Shown here piece by piece: positions 6,605 to 63,091 of a stretch of 64,000 bases of DNA. The translations under genes and the position numbers were made by a program. The notes beneath the pieces were generated by a model that was given only the letters and a program-made list of their open reading frames with translations, had not been told where the DNA came from and made no database searches. Source of the stretch: Prevotella sp. oral taxon 475 (GTDB taxonomy: Bacteria > Bacteroidota > Bacteroidia > Bacteroidales > Bacteroidaceae); the NCBI RefSeq assembly GCF_018127805.1, contig NZ_CP072334.1:1838001-1902000 (forward strand). Direction: 5' to 3'. The first letter of the stretch is position 1. Each line of letters starts with the position of its first letter.

Positions 6605-8713
6605 TTATTTTGTGCCATTCGTTTTCTTTCTCCAAATGCCATCTCTCTTGAGGAGGGCATCGATGGAGGGTTCGCTGCCGCGGAATCGTTTATAAAGCAC
6701 CATAGGATGTTCTGTTCCGCCACGCGAGAGGATGTTGTCACGAAATCTTTGTGCGGTTTCTTGATTGAAGATGCCCTGCTCTTTAAACACACTGAAAGCG
6801 TCGGCATCCAGCACTTCGGCCCACTTATAACTGTAGTAGCCGGCAGCATAACCGCCTGCCATGATATGAGAGAACTGTACGGTCATGCAGGTGTCGGGCA
6901 ATTGCTGGGTGATGATCGCTTTCTTCCAGGCTTCTTTCTCGAAGGGGATGATGTCTTCGGTGAAGGCTTCTTTCTGGGTATAGTAGGCCATGTCGAGCAA
7001 ACCGAAGCTCACTTGTCGCAGACAGGCTGTGGCCGCCATGAAGTTGCGGCTTTTTACGATGCGTTCGATGAGTTCGTCGGGGATGATTTCGCCCGTTTGA
7101 TAATGGACGGCGAACGTGCGGAGGAAGTCTTTCTCGATGGCGAAGTTTTCCATCAGCTGCGAGGGGAGTTCAACAAAATCCCACCAGACGTTGGTGCCGC
7201 TCAGACTTTCGAAACGGCTATTGGCAAACATGCCATGGAGCGAGTGTCCGAACTCGTGCAAGAACGTTTCCACCTCGCCGAGTGTCAGCAGGGCGGGCTT
7301 TTCGGCGGTGGGTTTCGTGAAGTTCATCACCACGCTGACGTGCGGCCGAACGTTTGTGCCTTTGCTGTCGATCCACTGTCCTTGAAATTCCGTCATCCAG
7401 GCTCCGCCCTGCTTTCCTTTTCGAGGGAAGAAGTCGGCATAGAAGACGGCCAGGAACGAACCGTCTTTATCGAACACTTCATAGGCCCGCACATCGGGGT
7501 GATAGACCGGAATGTCGGCGTTCTCTTTGAAGGTGATGCCGTAGAGCCTGGTGGCCAGGCCGAAGACGCCCTCAATGACTTTCGAGAGTTCGAAATAAGG
7601 TCGCAGCATTTCCGAGTCGAGATTGAATTTTTCCATCTGCAACCGATGCGAATAGAAAGCCATGTCCCAGGGTTCGAGTTGGAAGTCGTCGCCTTCCTGT
7701 GCTTGGGCCAGGCGTTCCACTTCGGCGAGTTCTTCGATGGCCGTAGGCTTGTAGGCTTCGAGCAGACTGTCGAGCAGTTGGTATACCTTCTTCGTATTGG
7801 TGGCCATGCGATGTTTGAGCACATAGTCGGCATAGGTTTCATATCCCAGCAGTTGAGCGATTTCTCGCCTCAGGTTGACCAATCGTTTGCAAATCTCGAG
7901 ATTGTTTTCCGCATTGGGATGCGTACATTCTGTATTGCGGGCCATGTATAGCTGGCGGCGCAGAGAGCGTTGCGTGGCGTAGGTGAGGAAAGGCGAATAA
8001 CTGGGAAAGTCGAGTGTAAACGTCCACCCCTTCTCTCCGCGTTCTTCAGCGGCGAGCGATGCGGCTTGGCGGGCGGTTTCGGGCAGTCCGTCGAGTTGTT
8101 CTTCGTCGGTGAGGTGGAGGGTGAAGGCTTTATTTTCTTTCAGCAGATTCTGCGAGAATTGCAGCGCCAGCCGGCCGGCCTCTTCGGTGAGGGCTCTGAG
8201 TTGTTCTTTTCCGGCATCGTCGAGCAGGGCCCCGCTACGCACAAAGCCGTCGTAGCTGTTTTCGAGCAGCATCTCCTCTTCGGCATCCAGGGGTCGATGG
8301 TGTTCGTAGACGTATTTGATGCGTTCGAAGAGCCGCCGATTGAGCCGCACGTCGTTGGCATGCTGCGTGAGGATGGGACTCATTTTCTGTGCCAGGGCAT
8401 CGAGTTCATCATTGGTTTCGGCACTCATCATACAGGAGAACACGCTGTAGACGCGGCTCAAGAGGTCGTAATATCCATCGCCCTGCTCGTTGTCCACCCT
8501 GACGATGGTGTTCTCGAAAGTAGGTTCTGCTGGGTCGTTGATCAGTTTTTCGATGGCCTCGTTATCCCGTCTGATTCCCTCCATGAAGGCTTCTTCGTAA
8601 TGTTCGGTTTTGATGAGATGAAAGGGAACGGTCTCATGGGGCGTATGGTATTCCTCGAAAAAGGGATTGTGATGCGTGTTGATTTCTCTCGTCGGATGTT
8701 GATTCGTATTCAT
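6605..8713 (-). CDS. M3 family zinc metallopeptidase (peptidyl-dipeptidase Dcp / oligopeptidase type)
   Basis: A 702-residue thimet-family peptidase that degrades short peptides. The zinc motif HEFGH is at residues 486-490 (TFLHEFGHSLHG), with the third ligand region downstream (SRFESLSGTNVWWDFVELPSQ). No signal peptide is visible, so it is probably cytoplasmic. Length and sequence style (NPFFEEYHTPHETVPF at the N-terminus) fit the Dcp/OpdA branch of Bacteroidota. A candidate -7 box (TATTTTTG on the minus strand, 8799-8806) lies upstream, next to the large repeat array at 8879-9596. It heads a tightly packed four-gene operon. Confidence 0.93.
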   Translation of the reverse strand: MNTNQHPTREINTHHNPFFEEYHTPHETVPFHLIKTEHYEEAFMEGIRRDNEAIEKLINDPAEPTFENTIVRVDNEQGDGYYDLLSRVYSVFSCMMSAETNDELDALAQKMSPILTQHANDVRLNRRLFERIKYVYEHHRPLDAEEEMLLENSYDGFVRSGALLDDAGKEQLRALTEEAGRLALQFSQNLLKENKAFTLHLTDEEQLDGLPETARQAASLAAEERGEKGWTFTLDFPSYSPFLTYATQRSLRRQLYMARNTECTHPNAENNLEICKRLVNLRREIAQLLGYETYADYVLKHRMATNTKKVYQLLDSLLEAYKPTAIEELAEVERLAQAQEGDDFQLEPWDMAFYSHRLQMEKFNLDSEMLRPYFELSKVIEGVFGLATRLYGITFKENADIPVYHPDVRAYEVFDKDGSFLAVFYADFFPRKGKQGGAWMTEFQGQWIDSKGTNVRPHVSVVMNFTKPTAEKPALLTLGEVETFLHEFGHSLHGMFANSRFESLSGTNVWWDFVELPSQLMENFAIEKDFLRTFAVHYQTGEIIPDELIERIVKSRNFMAATACLRQVSFGLLDMAYYTQKEAFTEDIIPFEKEAWKKAIITQQLPDTCMTVQFSHIMAGGYAAGYYSYKWAEVLDADAFSVFKEQGIFNQETAQRFRDNILSRGGTEHPMVLYKRFRGSEPSIDALLKRDGIWRKKTNGTK

Positions 8714-8878
8714 ATCTCGTTGTGATGGTTGTGTGAGCCTTTGCCGGCAGTGATGTTGCAGGGCCCCTGATGGCCTTGTGGGGTCGGCGAAAGTGTCACA
8801 AAAATAACAAAAAAACGGCGGTCTCTTTCATCGCCCTTTTCTTTTTAACGTATATTATTTCTCGTTCTTCTCCCAAGA

Positions 8879-9596
8879 GCTACTGAGCCGCTCAAAATGG
8901 CTGCGGAGACCAAAATGATGCTACTGAGCCGCTCAAAACCGTCACGGAGACAAAAATGGTGTTACTGAGTCGCTCAAAATGGCCGCGGAGACAAAAATGA
9001 TGCTACTGAGCCGCTCAAAACCGTCGCGGAGACCAAAATGATGCTACTGAGTCGCTCAAAACCGCCGCGGAGACCCAAAGGGTGTTACTGTACCCTACAG
9101 TGACGCCGCGGAGACAAAAATGATGCTACTGTACCCTACAAAATCGCCGCGGAGACAAAAATGATGCTACTGTACCCTACAAAATCGCCGCAGAGGCAAA
9201 AATGATGCTACTGTACCCTACAAAATCGCCATCAGAGGCAAAAATGGTGCTACTGTACCCTACAAAATCGCCGCGGAGGCAAAAATGATGCTACTGTACC
9301 CTACAAAACCGCCGCGGAGGCAAAAATGGCGTTACTGAACTGTTCAAAACTGCCGCGGAGACCAAAATGGTGCTACTGAATTGTTCAAAACCGCCGCGGA
9401 GACCAAAATGGTGCTACTGAACTGTTCAAAACCGCTGCGGAGACCAAAATGGCCTTACTGAACTGTTCAAAACCATCAGGGAGACAAAAATGGCGCTACT
9501 GAACTGTTCAAAACCATCAGGGAGACAAAAATGGCGCTACTGAACTGTTCAGTAACGCCGCGGAGGCAAAAATGGCGTTACCGAACTGTTCAGTAA
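8879..9596. repeat. 41-bp tandem array, about 17.5 copies, with palindromes in three sequence classes
   Basis: Contiguous 41-bp units fill most of the gap between the M3 peptidase and PurN-PAP2 genes. Each unit has an 11-bp palindrome followed by a conserved spacer close to CGGAGACCAAAATGGTG. Copies 1-5 carry TGAGCCGCTCA (or TGAGTCGCTCA), copies 6-11 TGTACCCTACA, copies 12-18 TGAACTGTTCA (once TGAATTGTTCA). When the left arm changes, the right arm changes to match. Copy 9 has one extra base. Some copies extend the palindrome to about 19-21 bp (TTACTGAAC...GTTCAGTAA). There is no coding potential, and no variable spacers of a CRISPR kind. Confidence 0.93.
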
Positions 9597-9602
9597 CTTC
9601 CC

Positions 9603-10898
9603 CTACTCCTTCTTGCATCTCTTCCATTCTTTCTTGGCCTTTGCCAACTGCCGGGTAAAGGCTTCGTCGGCATGCAGACGAGCAACGGCACCGCTGGCTG
9701 CGATGCGAGCCACGTCGACATCGCTCTGATAATGATAGCCTACGATGACGCGGCTCTCGCCATATTCGTAACCTCGGCGGAGGATAGCGTCCTGACGGTC
9801 GGGGTTCAGCTCGGCCAGTACGAGTGCAATGGCCCATCCCCGCGCCGTATGTCCCGAGGGAAACGAACCGCTGTGGCGCAGTTCGTCCTCGTCTTCGGGC
9901 ACACCCGTCGGCTCGTGAAACTGCACATAAGGTCGCTTGCGCATGTATTTCTTCTTGGCTCCACGCACCGACAGACTCCCGTCATTCTCCACCCGCTGCA
10001 CCAAACTGTAGATCTCCGGCGTCGTCTCCTTACTGATGAGCATGCCGAAGGCTTCCTGAAAACCTTTCAGAATGGAGTCGACCTCGACATAAGCATCGAA
10101 CACGGCCTGACGACCGCGCGGCGTGTTGCGCATCGACTTGCCCCACTGATAGCGGTCGAAGTCTTTGAGAAAGGCGATGCTCGACGTATCGGGCGGTGCC
10201 GGAATGAATTGCGTTGCCTCGGGCAGGTCTTTCTGCGAAAGGAACGAGGGCCACTTCTCTGCCTTCCCGCCTTTCTGCGCCACGGCAGACAGGGTGCACA
10301 GCAACGCGACGAGCAGGAGCGCATAGCCTTTGAGCGATGTCAACACGCGTTCGATCACCGTCGGAAAGTGGCGTTCTTCCAAGAGATGTTCCTTGGCGGC
10401 AATCTCCTCGGGCGTGTCCTGCAGAGACAGGGGCGTACGGAACTGGGCGATGATTTCTCCGCCGTCGCACTCCTCGCTCACCCAATGCACCGTCATGCCC
10501 GTCTCTTTCTCGCCCGCCGCCTTCACGGCCTCGTGCACATGATGCCCATACATGCCTCTGCCGCCATACTTGGGCAGCAAAGCGGGATGGAGATTGAGCA
10601 TGCGCCGATGGTAGGCCTTGACCAAAAACGGGGGAATCATGAGCAGAAAACCGGCCAGGACGATGAAGTCGATGCCGTGTTGGCGCATCAGGGGAAGGAG
10701 CAAGTCTTCGCGGTTGAAGTCGGCTTTATTCACCACCACGGTGGGGATGTGGTGGTTCTGGGCTCTCACCAGTGCGTAGGCATCCGCCCGATTGCTCAAC
10801 ACCAGGGCTACTTTTACCCGTGTATGGTGATGGAAATGGCGGATGATGTTCTCGCAGTTGGTTCCGTTGCCCGAAACAAAAATGGCTATTCGTATCAT
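9603..10898 (-). CDS. purN: PurN - PAP2 acid phosphatase in-frame fusion
   Basis: One uninterrupted 431-codon frame joins two proteins. Residues 1 to about 186 are phosphoribosylglycinamide formyltransferase (third step of purine synthesis): SGNGTN near the N-terminus and the catalytic stretch LNLHPALLPKYGGRGMYGHHVH, ending at the usual PurN C-terminus (HFPTVIERV). Residues about 187-431 are a class A-type PAP2 acid phosphatase with PSGHTARGW (347-355) and GYHYQSDVDVAR (387-398). Residues 185-208 look exactly like an exported-protein signal peptide ending SAVAQ. The codons for residues 185 and 186 are GTG and TTG, possible internal starts (10346 or 10343). So the phosphatase may also be made separately and exported. 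A true fusion would put an export signal behind a cytosolic enzyme. Confidence 0.88.
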   Translation of the reverse strand: MIRIAIFVSGNGTNCENIIRHFHHHTRVKVALVLSNRADAYALVRAQNHHIPTVVVNKADFNREDLLLPLMRQHGIDFIVLAGFLLMIPPFLVKAYHRRMLNLHPALLPKYGGRGMYGHHVHEAVKAAGEKETGMTVHWVSEECDGGEIIAQFRTPLSLQDTPEEIAAKEHLLEERHFPTVIERVLTSLKGYALLLVALLCTLSAVAQKGGKAEKWPSFLSQKDLPEATQFIPAPPDTSSIAFLKDFDRYQWGKSMRNTPRGRQAVFDAYVEVDSILKGFQEAFGMLISKETTPEIYSLVQRVENDGSLSVRGAKKKYMRKRPYVQFHEPTGVPEDEDELRHSGSFPSGHTARGWAIALVLAELNPDRQDAILRRGYEYGESRVIVGYHYQSDVDVARIAASGAVARLHADEAFTRQLAKAKKEWKRCKKE

Positions 10899-12084: not shown

Positions 12085-12687
12085 TTACTTACCTGCAGCG
12101 GCAGCAGCAGCGGCTGCGGCGGCAGCACGAGTCATCTTCACGGTGCAGACAATCACATCTTTGGGCGTTACCACTTCAAGTCCGTCGAAAGTCAAATCGC
12201 CGGCTTTGATGCTTTTTCCAATCGTCAGTGCGGTTACGTCTACATCCAATTTCTCGGGAATCTGCTTGTAAGGAGCTTTGACAACAAGCTTACGGATAGA
12301 CAGACTCAGACGTCCACCATCGCGAACACCCTGTGCCAAACCCACGAGGTTGACGGGAATACCGATAGCAAGGGGCTTCTCTTCGTTGATTTCGTAGAAG
12401 TCTACGTGCAGCAGAACGTCTGTCACGGGATGGAATTGCAATTCTTTCATCACGGCGATGTGCTTCTCTCCCTCGACATCGAGGTTCACCACGTAGATGT
12501 GCGGGGTGTAAACCACCTTGCGAAGTTCGCTCATCGGAACCATAAACGACAAGGCCTCGGGCAGTCCGTTCTCGCCTTTCTTTTCGCCATAAAGGTTACA
12601 AGGCACGAAACCTTCTTTTCTCATCTCCTTAGAAGCCTTTTTACCTACGTCGGTTCTCTTCTTTCCGTTTACATTGATTTCTCTCAT
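12085..12687 (-). CDS. rplY: 50S ribosomal protein L25/Ctc with polyalanine tail
   Basis: Binds 5S rRNA in the large subunit. The 200-residue protein is the long, two-domain L25 (TL5/Ctc type): N-terminal 5S-binding domain ([25 protein letters not shown]) plus the C-terminal beta domain ([31 protein letters not shown]). The last residues are an unbroken run of eleven alanines before GK, encoded by mixed GCN codons. A promoter (-7 box at 12783-12790) stands about 95 nt upstream, and pth and hslR follow on the same strand. Confidence 0.96.
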
Positions 12688-12872: not shown

Positions 12873-12975
12873 GAAAGTTTAGAAAACGCCATGCGAAAGC
12901 TAAGAAAATGCACGCTAAAAGCTAAGAAAACGCACGCTAAAAGCTAAGAAAACGCATGGCAAAAGCTAAGGTTTT
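12873..12975. repeat. 22-bp A-tract repeat, locus 1
   Basis: About 4.5 contiguous units of 22 bp: AAAAGCTAAGAAAACG followed by six less conserved bases such as CACGCT. It lies in the intergenic region between divergent rplY and the S8 protease gene. The same unit recurs at 16756, 49212, 49981 and 56600. The period is not a multiple of three, so it is not coding. Confidence 0.85.
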
Positions 12976-16755: not shown

Positions 16756-16850
16756 AAAAGCTAAGAGATTGACATGCAAAAGCTAAGAGAATAGAGAGTA
16801 AAAGCTAAGAAAATGAACGTCAAAAGCTAAGAGATTGCATTGCGAAACCG
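16756..16850. repeat. 22-bp A-tract repeat, locus 2
   Basis: Four units at 16756-16777, 16778-16799, 16800-16821 and 16822-16843 share AAAAGCTAAGAR followed by variable bases. Apart from the candidate -7 box at 16983, the rest of the 16575-17060 gap shows nothing further. Confidence 0.85.
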
Positions 16851-38199: not shown

Positions 38200-38259
38200 C
38201 GAATAAAAATCCGTCGGGCAGCCTGTCAAGAGGAGAAAGTAGAGGTATGATGGAGTTTC

Positions 38260-38449
38260 GGCACCTGCCGAAAGCGCAAAAATGAGAGAAACAAGGCGGT
38301 GGCACCTGCCGAAAGCGTGAAAATGAGAGAAACAAGGCGGCGGCACCTGCCGAAAGCGCAAAAATGAGAAAGACAAGGCATTGGCACCTGCCGAAAGCGT
38401 GAAAATGAGAGAAACAAGGCGGCGGCACCTGCCGAAAGCGCAAAAATGG
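38260..38449. repeat. 41-bp tandem array, third locus (4.6 copies)
   Basis: Units start at 38260, 38301, 38342, 38383 and 38424. Each contains the dyad GGCACCTGCC (CGGCACCTGCCG in some copies) followed by GAAAGCG and CAAAAATGAGA or close variants. The period and the order (palindrome, then an A-rich stretch with AAAATG) match the other 41-bp loci, but the sequence is different. It lies between the divergent C10 protease and ATPase genes. Confidence 0.9.
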
Positions 38450-38482
38450 AAACAAACGTGATGGGGTCTGCAATTAAATGGC

Positions 38483-49194: not shown

Positions 49195-49299
49195 TTGATC
49201 ATTCTATTTGCAAAAGCTAAGAAAACGAACGACGAAAGCTAAGAAAACGGAGTGCAAAAGCTAAGAGAATGAGACATAAAAGCTAAGAGAAGGAAACGG
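49195..49299. repeat. 22-bp A-tract repeat, locus 3, and left copy of a 72-bp direct repeat
   Basis: Four 22-bp units start at 49212. The segment 49195-49266 recurs at 49964-50035 with one base difference (71 of 72), so the DUF5053 cassette is bracketed by direct repeats. Confidence 0.88.
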
Positions 49300-49963: not shown

Positions 49964-50062
49964 TTGATCATTCTATTTGCAAAAACTAAGAAAACGAACG
50001 ACGAAAGCTAAGAAAACGGAGTGCAAAAGCTAAGAAAACGCGATGCAAAAGATCAGCTTTTG
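49964..50062. repeat. 22-bp A-tract repeat, locus 4, and right copy of the 72-bp direct repeat
   Basis: 49964-50035 repeats 49195-49266 with a single G-to-A change. The 22-bp units start at 49981, 50003 and 50025, with a partial unit at 50047. Confidence 0.88.
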
Positions 50063-62052: not shown

Positions 62053-62065
62053 TGTTTAGTTGACA

Positions 62066-62251
62066 AGTTGACAAGTTAACAAGTTGACAAGGGGACGAGT
62101 TGACAAGTTAATGAGTTGATGAGTTAACAAGGAAATTAGCTCATCTATCAACTCATCCACTCGTCCACTAAAAAAGGCAAACTTCCTCGTCAACTCATCA
62201 ACTCATTAACTTGTCAACTCGTCCCCTTGTCAACTTGTTAACTTGTCAACT
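62066..62251. repeat. 60-bp perfect inverted repeat built from 8-bp units
   Basis: The left arm 62066-62125 and right arm 62192-62251 are exact reverse complements over 60 bp. About 10 more pairs with two mismatches extend inwards, leaving a loop of about 45 nt. Each arm is itself a tandem array of octamers of the type AAGTTGAC (also AAGTTAAC, AAGGGGAC, GAGTTGAT). Further octamers continue to about 62300. It separates the TonB receptor gene from pnuT. Confidence 0.92.
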
Positions 62252-62310
62252 CATCCCCTCGTCAACTCGTCCCCTTGTCAACTCGTCAACTTATTAACTA
62301 AAACATCCCC

Positions 62311-63044: not shown

Positions 63045-63091
<47 letters not shown>

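Follow-up and report, generated by a model that had tools for sequence, protein, structure and literature searches.

Modular arrays of 41-bp palindromic repeats in the chromosome of Prevotella sp. oral taxon 475, a possible REP-like DNA element

The DNA analysed here, 64,000 nucleotides of the chromosome of Prevotella sp. oral taxon 475 (the window, hereafter), lies within a single contig of 2,560,308 bases and carries at 8879-9597 a tandem array of 41-bp units, each with a short palindrome, or dyad. This array is one of at least 41 in the chromosome, which are made of head-to-tail modules of about six 41-bp units with one dyad per module. The arms of the dyads are nearly fixed, whereas most columns of the spacer and, in one class, the centre of the dyad vary. 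We tentatively read the array as a palindromic repeat acting at the DNA level, comparable to the repetitive extragenic palindromic (REP) sequences and the bacterial interspersed mosaic elements (BIMEs); taken as a whole, with the mechanism proposed below, this is our best explanation, and we give it slightly less than an even chance of being right.

An Array of Three Palindromic Modules

Tandem Repeats Finder (TRF), run on the window, reports a period of 41 with 17.4 copies (score 705, 8879-9592), and reading by eye gives 18 head-to-tail units, unit 9 being one base longer (42) and the hairpin of the last unit ending at 9597. A preliminary description of this sequence had proposed an 18-unit array with a period of 41 bp and three palindrome classes (units 1-5, 6-11, and 12-18), and both points are borne out. 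It had also assigned a single palindrome to each class, which is correct for the classes but too simple for their members: the centre in block 1 is CCG or TCG (TGAGCCGCTCA in units 1, 2, and 4, TGAGTCGCTCA in units 3 and 5), and two units of block 3 depart from their dyad on one arm only (unit 13 with TGAATTGTTCA and unit 18 with CGAACTGTTCA). Arms are longer in unit 6 of block 2 (GTTACTGTA-CCC-TACAGTGAC) and are extended in units 17 and 18 of block 3, the latter lacking a spacer and closing the array.

A Genome-Wide Family of Arrays

The units can be recovered throughout the genome with the anchor pattern AAAATG-N35-AAAATG, which gives 107 and 110 matches on the two strands, versus 1 and 0 for the reversed control. 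One hundred matches per strand were followed, with 17 places left out; repeats seen at 831847, 1340699, 2220559-2220982, and 300796 (L296) stand outside the parsed set. From 38 stretches, 41 arrays were parsed, comprising about 350 units: 25 arrays of family A, the kind found at 8879-9597, 15 of family B, of the AAAATGAGAAAAAC type, and a single array of 41-bp units in which no dyad is clear. The step between units is 41, sometimes 42 or 43, in keeping with an anchor pattern and a parser (39-43) that select for such steps. Arrays begin and finish on a dyad and, judged by eye, share neither a leader nor a tail. The three dyads of the window recur across family A arrays. Inside each array, units keep a single spacer orientation (by eye), inversion affecting dyad centres only. 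The dnaA domain is at 1.799 Mb, and 30 of the 41 parsed arrays fall within 1.15-1.91 Mb (30% of the chromosome), mostly on the low side of dnaA, among the matches listed, in which the far end is under-sampled.

The modular organization is most apparent from the order of the units. The 15 family A arrays with more than one class contain 18 class switches in total, versus a mean of 80.7 and a minimum of 64 when unit order is shuffled within arrays (1000 shuffles), in agreement with the earlier impression that blocks were amplified from founders. Blocks are also of similar length: 31 of 43 family A blocks hold 5-7 units in a count that skipped units whose core fits no dyad, and 34 of 43 in a hand-corrected list. 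Longer arms, up to 29 bp, are frequent in the first and last units of arrays and blocks (by eye). Distinctive of these repeats is the 41-bp head-to-tail plan with dyad-homogeneous modules of about six units, which recurs with other dyads in a second genome (see below).

Two pairs of arrays have common flanks (722430/812752 and 344235/1211635; L231/L233 and L254/L236), one pair being separated by 90 kb, as though by duplication of a larger segment. The other pair, 344235/1211635, lies behind genes with similar 3' ends, at an equal distance from the stop codon, and these upstream gene ends look paralogous. The array without a clear dyad, at 1749575 (L249), has an unrelated unit, a hint of a preference for this period that does not depend on the palindrome.

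What Is Held Constant Within a Unit

Conservation was counted on 240 of 251 family A units, the 11 others being more than two mismatches away from every dyad; 198 of the retained units are internal. Among these 198, arm positions show 0.4-0.8% minor bases. The spacer had been described as nearly constant, which applies to parts of it: depending on the class, columns 6-9 have 21-31% minor bases, columns 24-33 have 19-26%, and columns 38-40 have 16-44%, but the values are lower in columns 10-12 (1.7-13%) and in the GGAG of columns 34-37 (0.4 and 1.9% in two classes, 16% in the third). The AAAATG anchor has 1.4-2.9%, having itself been used to select units. In the GAG class, the centre of the dyad shows 24.6% minor bases.

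The dyads are indeed kept, and their arms differ jointly between classes, as first noted: 955 of 1004 arm cells pair in the 251 anchor-placed family A units, and sliding the partner by 1-3 positions lowers this to 86-335. The further idea of arm covariation holds for these joint class differences and fails within classes, where the 240 units contain 15 variants of one arm and none of both. It follows from these counts that, within a class, the arm sequence itself is held, beyond mere pairing, and that the joint changes of both arms in the window set three old classes apart and do not reflect covariation still in progress. The complete pairing in an analysis of column mutual information was discarded, and so was a zero arm entropy: the units had been pre-filtered for three dyads, and both arise by construction.

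Dyad centres behave differently from arms. In family B, they occur in both orientations on the same arms (CTAC/GTAG, CCCC/GGGG, and CACCTG/CAGGTG), and units of a single array differ by inversion of the centre at 1903341 and at 1542808. Pairs of this kind in family A are CCG/CGG, TCG/CGA, TGG/CCA, and GCC/GGC, whereas CCC (72 occurrences) has no GGG counterpart. Such inverted centres fit template switching, which homogenizes the arms of inverted repeats and inverts their spacer (PMC8604942).

Two other candidate signals were set aside. Phased A-tracts, or curved DNA, gave no consistent power at 10.25 bp in 13 hand-typed units, and mini-open reading frames (GGAG-N6-ATG, with frames of 14 or 17 codons) had no clear codon-position pattern.

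A Probable Constraint on DNA Rather Than RNA

A folded RNA hairpin was one of the functions first suggested for the palindromes, and this is not supported for family A: over 200 distinct windows, the mean folding energy is -5.97 kcal/mol versus -5.62 for mononucleotide shuffles, i.e., near chance. In neither family do the mismatches between arms clearly favour wobble pairs (four G-T and two A-C in family A, nine and six in family B, counted on distinct cores chosen for best pairing). Rfam searches of 15 of the 38 own-genome array stretches found nothing above thresholds except one tRNA, and those of window positions 8400-10000 gave four miRNA matches, all sub-threshold. Because family A folds near chance and has no clear wobble preference, RNA hairpin selection was rejected for it, and its dyad most likely reflects a constraint on DNA. 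Joint arm changes in such repeats need not mean RNA structure. Family B may have a role as RNA: its folds beat those of shuffles (-9.28 versus -2.98, 71 windows), with the sense strand no better than the antisense (P 0.18).

Placement Between Genes and Terminator-Like Hairpins

Genes around the arrays were called with a simple codon model, and 60 unique other gaps of at least 60 bp from the same stretches served as a comparison. Of the 41 arrays, 13 lie in convergent gaps, 25 in co-directional gaps, and 3 in divergent gaps, versus 10, 36, and 14 for the other gaps, a weak tendency towards positions behind genes. At least one gene reads into 38 of the 41 arrays, and its stop codon is within 30 bp in 19. 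For family A alone, 10 of 25 arrays lie in convergent gaps (P 0.03, a subset chosen after the fact). Between co-directional genes, 11 of 12 family B arrays point with the genes (P 0.006), and family A arrays are split 6 and 7, with no preference.

Terminator-like hairpins are found on the antisense strand in 21 of 25 family A and 12 of 15 family B arrays, and on the sense strand in 2 of 25 and 2 of 15, respectively. In family B they extend to the inner units (46/68, versus 31/272 shuffled). The inner units of family A have no terminator strength above chance (30/201 versus 154/804 shuffled), and the last units of its arrays reach 8/25 versus 8/100 shuffled. Window positions 8700-9700 contain seven terminator-like matches versus 1.2 in shuffles, the strong ones being units 17 and 18 (Table 1). 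Judging from sequence, these two units are probably the intrinsic terminator, on the minus strand, of the gene encoding a PurN-PAP2 protein that reads into the array.

Related Arrays in Other Genomes

In other genomes, arrays were recognized by eye from neighbouring matches, with a fixed-period pattern that partly selects for period and anchor. The family A pattern is present in 1 of 398 genomes of the genus, namely its own (147 matches). The family B pattern occurs in 10 of the 398, including its own; by eye, four of these resemble ordinary gene starts and one resembles a lone hairpin. Some match to the anchor pattern is present in 49 of the 60 genomes of the genus searched with it and in 13 of the 16 named ones, mostly near control level, as in Hoylesella marshii (6 and 8 matches versus 2 and 7 in the controls). 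Viral contigs gave 24 stretches with one match each.

The second genome with the same modular plan, G016, contains block mosaics with 41-bp steps and about nine dyads, none of them from family A (by eye, with centres chosen for best pairing) and two shared with family B, of the CGTA-CCCC-TACG and CGAG-CTCG types. One of its arrays (L271, 1266-1934) has 6+5+6 units. Dyad centres again occur in both orientations, and CGTC precedes some of the stems (both by eye). Arrays with a 41-bp period are also found in H. marshii (G426) and Hoylesella saccharolytica (G423). TRF, applied to 80 Prevotella-type loci not chosen for repeats (L119-L198, 1.39 Mb), found a period of 22 to be the commonest (32 arrays); 11 arrays have a period of 44 and 3, all in H. 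marshii, a period of 41. The possibility that these genus-wide 22/44-bp repeats are the same element was rejected: dyad enrichment at P 0.05 is modest (10/48 for periods 21-23 and 5/15 for 40-46, versus 6/86 for other periods), and a minority are palindromic.

Genomes G170 and G328 share an orthologous six-unit array of another family, with units in the same order, between tilS-like and lpxD-like genes (L293 and L294; gene names from the L294 translations). The two copies are 93.9% identical, with flanks at 90.5-97%. Outside the centre, 4 of 96 dyad positions differ between them, as do 1 of 12 centre positions and 11 of 138 spacer positions. All four arm differences are one-sided, three being in unit 1 of G328. 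Two checks proposed in the preliminary description could be run on this one pair: the test of covariation went against it, none of the four arm changes being compensated, and the comparison of array length, made here between genomes, revealed no change of unit number.

What May Maintain the Arrays

High copy number, intergenic placement, fixed arms, and alternative complementary stems fit the REP/BIME-like reading, in line with what is described for REPs (PMC3733652). The arms would be fixed since something reads them as DNA, and this reader would most likely be recombination, nuclease, or transposition machinery that spreads and amplifies the repeats rather than a promoter regulator. Units would multiply by slippage or by unequal exchange among same-dyad units, so that each module would find its own length, and template switching at a DNA hairpin would occasionally flip a dyad centre. 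The host, for its part, may have put the last two units to use for PurN-PAP2 termination. A regulator regulon was rejected on the distribution of two dyads, the GAG dyad not having been searched by itself: CTGAACTGTTCA has 82 sites genome-wide (reversed control 0), 2 of them single (977281 and 981620), and since nearly all are in arrays it does not mark promoter sites; CTGTANNNTACA occurs at 6 places outside arrays among 100 listed of 117.

Several observations weigh against the REP/BIME-like reading. No dyad-recognizing protein was found. The genome has two Y1 (IS200-like, Y1_Tnp) transposase genes, neither flanked by arrays, so that a link to REP-associated tyrosine transposases (RAYTs) was rejected: the surrounding 3.3-kb stretches lack an array, and there is one isolated TGAG-NNN-CTCA match beside one of the genes (other transposases were not searched). 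The number of dyads, three in family A, about four in family B, and about nine in G016, would call for either several specificities or a reader of structure. Placement bias is weak (divergent gaps 3/41 versus 14/60, P 0.06; convergent gaps 13/41 versus 10/60, P 0.09). The family A antisense strand folds somewhat better than the sense strand (-6.69 versus -5.97, P 2e-5), which is unexpected for a pure DNA model. Neighbouring GAG centres agree in 29 cases, are exact inversions of each other in 4, and differ in some other way in 22, against a dominant role of template switching, and the differences between G170 and G328 (4/96, 1/12, and 11/138) are too few to reveal extra protection of the arms.

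A neutral palindromic minisatellite, with neither a host function nor a specific reader, would account for part of these data, slippage making the blocks and template switching keeping the arms alike and flipping the centre; we consider this rather unlikely. In yeast, template switching is documented to homogenize arms and to invert spacers, and in proteobacteria, non-coding regions that contain short inverted repeats are reported to be more conserved than their surroundings (PMC8604942); centres occur in both orientations here (G000) and in G016 (by eye). Copying from arm to arm should, however, give compensated dyads, at odds with the one-sided variants of family A and the four uncompensated changes between G170 and G328, and the concentration of 31/43 blocks at 5-7 units is tighter than a geometric birth-and-death law (on a hand-typed list, this being the sole slippage law compared). 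By analogy with the F plasmid centromere (parS-F/sopC), the units could instead be tandem sites for a dimeric host protein involved in nucleoid or chromosome organization, dimeric protein sites being the other function first suggested. Fixed arms around a free 3-bp centre in the GAG class and family A RNA folds not above chance would suit such sites; the three to about nine dyads per genome, the 41 scattered loci, the near lack of isolated sites for one dyad, the restriction of the family A pattern to one genus genome, and an arrangement that is not symmetric around dnaA, among the matches listed, do not, and make this possibility a poor one.

Scarcely different in probability, and a shade lower, is a one-way transcription barrier in which the arrays would be tandem intrinsic terminators on the antisense strand. 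It draws on the strand bias of the terminator-like hairpins in both families, on the inner units of family B, and on the orientation of co-directional family B arrays, which would avoid stopping the operon (11 versus 1). Yet the inner units of family A do no better than shuffles, a terminator already precedes the array for 10 of 16 left and 6 of 17 right genes reading into family A arrays (by a crude rule), and the identity of dyads within a block is left unexplained. Finally, the preliminary description had invoked the BrickBuilt elements of Porphyromonas gingivalis. That the arrays are a miniature inverted-repeat transposable element (MITE) akin to BrickBuilt or MITE464/PgRS and mobilized by an IS5-like transposase is very improbable, even though MITE464/PgRS contains 41-nt tandem direct repeats in P. 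gingivalis (PMC4596501): the organism is another one (among the best 80 of 572 loci, the nearest named ones belong to Prevotella conceptionensis and Hoylesella spp.), the 41 arrays have no common leader or tail (by eye), and five listed terminal inverted repeat (TIR) sequences are found at 0 of 41 arrays within 250 bp at up to one mismatch.

To return to the REP/BIME-like reading, a more speculative extension, which we think unlikely, would make each module of about six same-dyad units a functional binding unit for its own reader. Arrays would combine one to three such modules (up to four, plus single units, in G016) into a combinatorial intergenic DNA element, and dyad identity would limit recombination so that modules evolve as separate cassettes. 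If so, they would represent a modular class of bacterial repeat without description in the literature searched. With about 350 units in one genome and similar arrays in the genus, these repeats offer a natural system for separating slippage, template switching, and selection on dyads, and the module length of about six together with the one-dyad-per-module rule are regularities that any general REP-like account must explain.

The Locus and Other Features of the Window

Table 1. Arrays, predicted hairpins, and neighbouring genes in the window.
Feature	Position	Strand	Description
Block 1	8879..9083	+	Five 41-bp units; dyad TGAG-(CCG or TCG)-CTCA
Block 2	9084..9330	+	Six units, unit 9 of 42 bp; dyad TGTA-CCC-TACA
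Block 3	9331..9597	+	Seven units; dyad TGAACTGTTCA
Terminator-like hairpin, unit 17	9533..9559	-	-18.8 kcal/mol, ATTTTTG tail; consensus match only
Terminator-like hairpin, unit 18	9577..9597	-	-10.8 kcal/mol; five bases beyond the PurN-PAP2 stop codon
PurN-PAP2 gene reading into the array	9603..10898	-	Formyltransferase (PurN-like, PF00551) and PAP2 domain (PF01569), 431 aa
M3 family peptidase, next minus-strand gene	6605..8713	-	PF01432; start 165 bp from the array
Second array, family B	38259..38452	+	Five units, dyad GGCACCTGCC, same 41-bp period

Full-length (431 residues) relatives of the PurN-PAP2 protein are found in P. conceptionensis, H. saccharolytica, Hoylesella shahii, and Hoylesella loescheii, among the best 80 of 572 loci, their best segments being 70-75% identical to it. 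On these sequence grounds, the host is assigned to a Prevotella/Hoylesella-like species, not to Porphyromonas. None of the four named relatives has an array within 260 bases 3' of the PurN-PAP2 stop codon; all four have instead a long hairpin after the gene (by eye), and the M3 peptidase is present at one of the four loci, about 8 kb off. A 1.3-kb flank of the array, searched against the 398 genus genomes, has no match above 78% identity except its own, among the matches listed.

The second array of the window (region 38259-38473) is flanked by the gene of a C10 peptidase carrying a Spi inhibitor domain and by a gene pair encoding an AAA ATPase and a DUF4435 protein, and its last AAAATG is the start codon of the AAA ATPase in the open reading frame call. 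At E 0.001, a putative protein product of this array had no homologue. A 22-bp tandem repeat family of the AAAAGCTAAGAAAACG type occurs four times in the window (12874-12970, 16756-16837, 49209-49295, and 49978-50051), and a related motif is found near an IS200-like gene (L268). Positions 62058-62292 and 63047-63089 hold 8-bp tandem repeats (of the AGTTGACA type and, about 55 bp further on, the CTCGTCAA type) and an AC dinucleotide run of 21.5 copies. A ribosomal protein L25 with a poly-alanine tail before a C-terminal GK is encoded at 12085-12687.

Comparison With Known Systems

In the literature searched, from which subscription journals were mostly absent, there was no description of such Prevotella arrays or of dyad-homogeneous modules. 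In GTAG-tagged REPs, the tag lies on the 5' side of the stem. Here, GTAG is 5' of the dyad in 0 of 225 units on either strand, and CTAC is in this position on the plus strand in 146 of 225 units, i.e., with a polarity opposite to that of the tag. Unlike GTAG-REPs, whose tag is described as unpaired at one end of the stem (PMC3733652), the arrays also have no RAYT (Y1 transposase) gene beside them. REPs, which carry either the GTAG tag or an unpaired CGTC at one end of the stem, are short extragenic palindromes present in many copies, with several families per genome, mostly between co-directional and convergent genes, and alternative complementary stem residues have already been described for their sub-families (PMC3733652). 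The arrays studied here likewise consist of an intergenic palindrome in many copies, whose stems are conserved and come in complementary alternatives, and are REP-like in this broad sense. They differ from REPs and BIMEs in their head-to-tail 41-bp plan and their dyad-homogeneous modules of about six units, and from BIMEs, in which REPs alternate in orientation, in the single spacer orientation of their units (by eye).

Other systems resemble the arrays in fewer respects. MITE464/PgRS of P. gingivalis has an equal period of 41 nt in tandem direct repeats (PMC4596501), a likeness noted for the period; it belongs to another genus, and its TIR (GAGACTGTTGCA / TGCAACGGTCTC) is found at 0 of 41 arrays within 250 bp at up to one mismatch. 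BrickBuilt elements are also intergenic tandem repeats of Bacteroidales, but with a 23-nt unit, a leader, a tail, and TIRs, none of which was seen with the 41-bp units. The parS-F (sopC) site of the F plasmid resembles the arrays in having dyads in tandem repeats that span about four DNA turns (PMC6238139); it is one plasmid site bound by ParB-F, whereas the arrays described here are spread over dozens of loci and carry many dyads.
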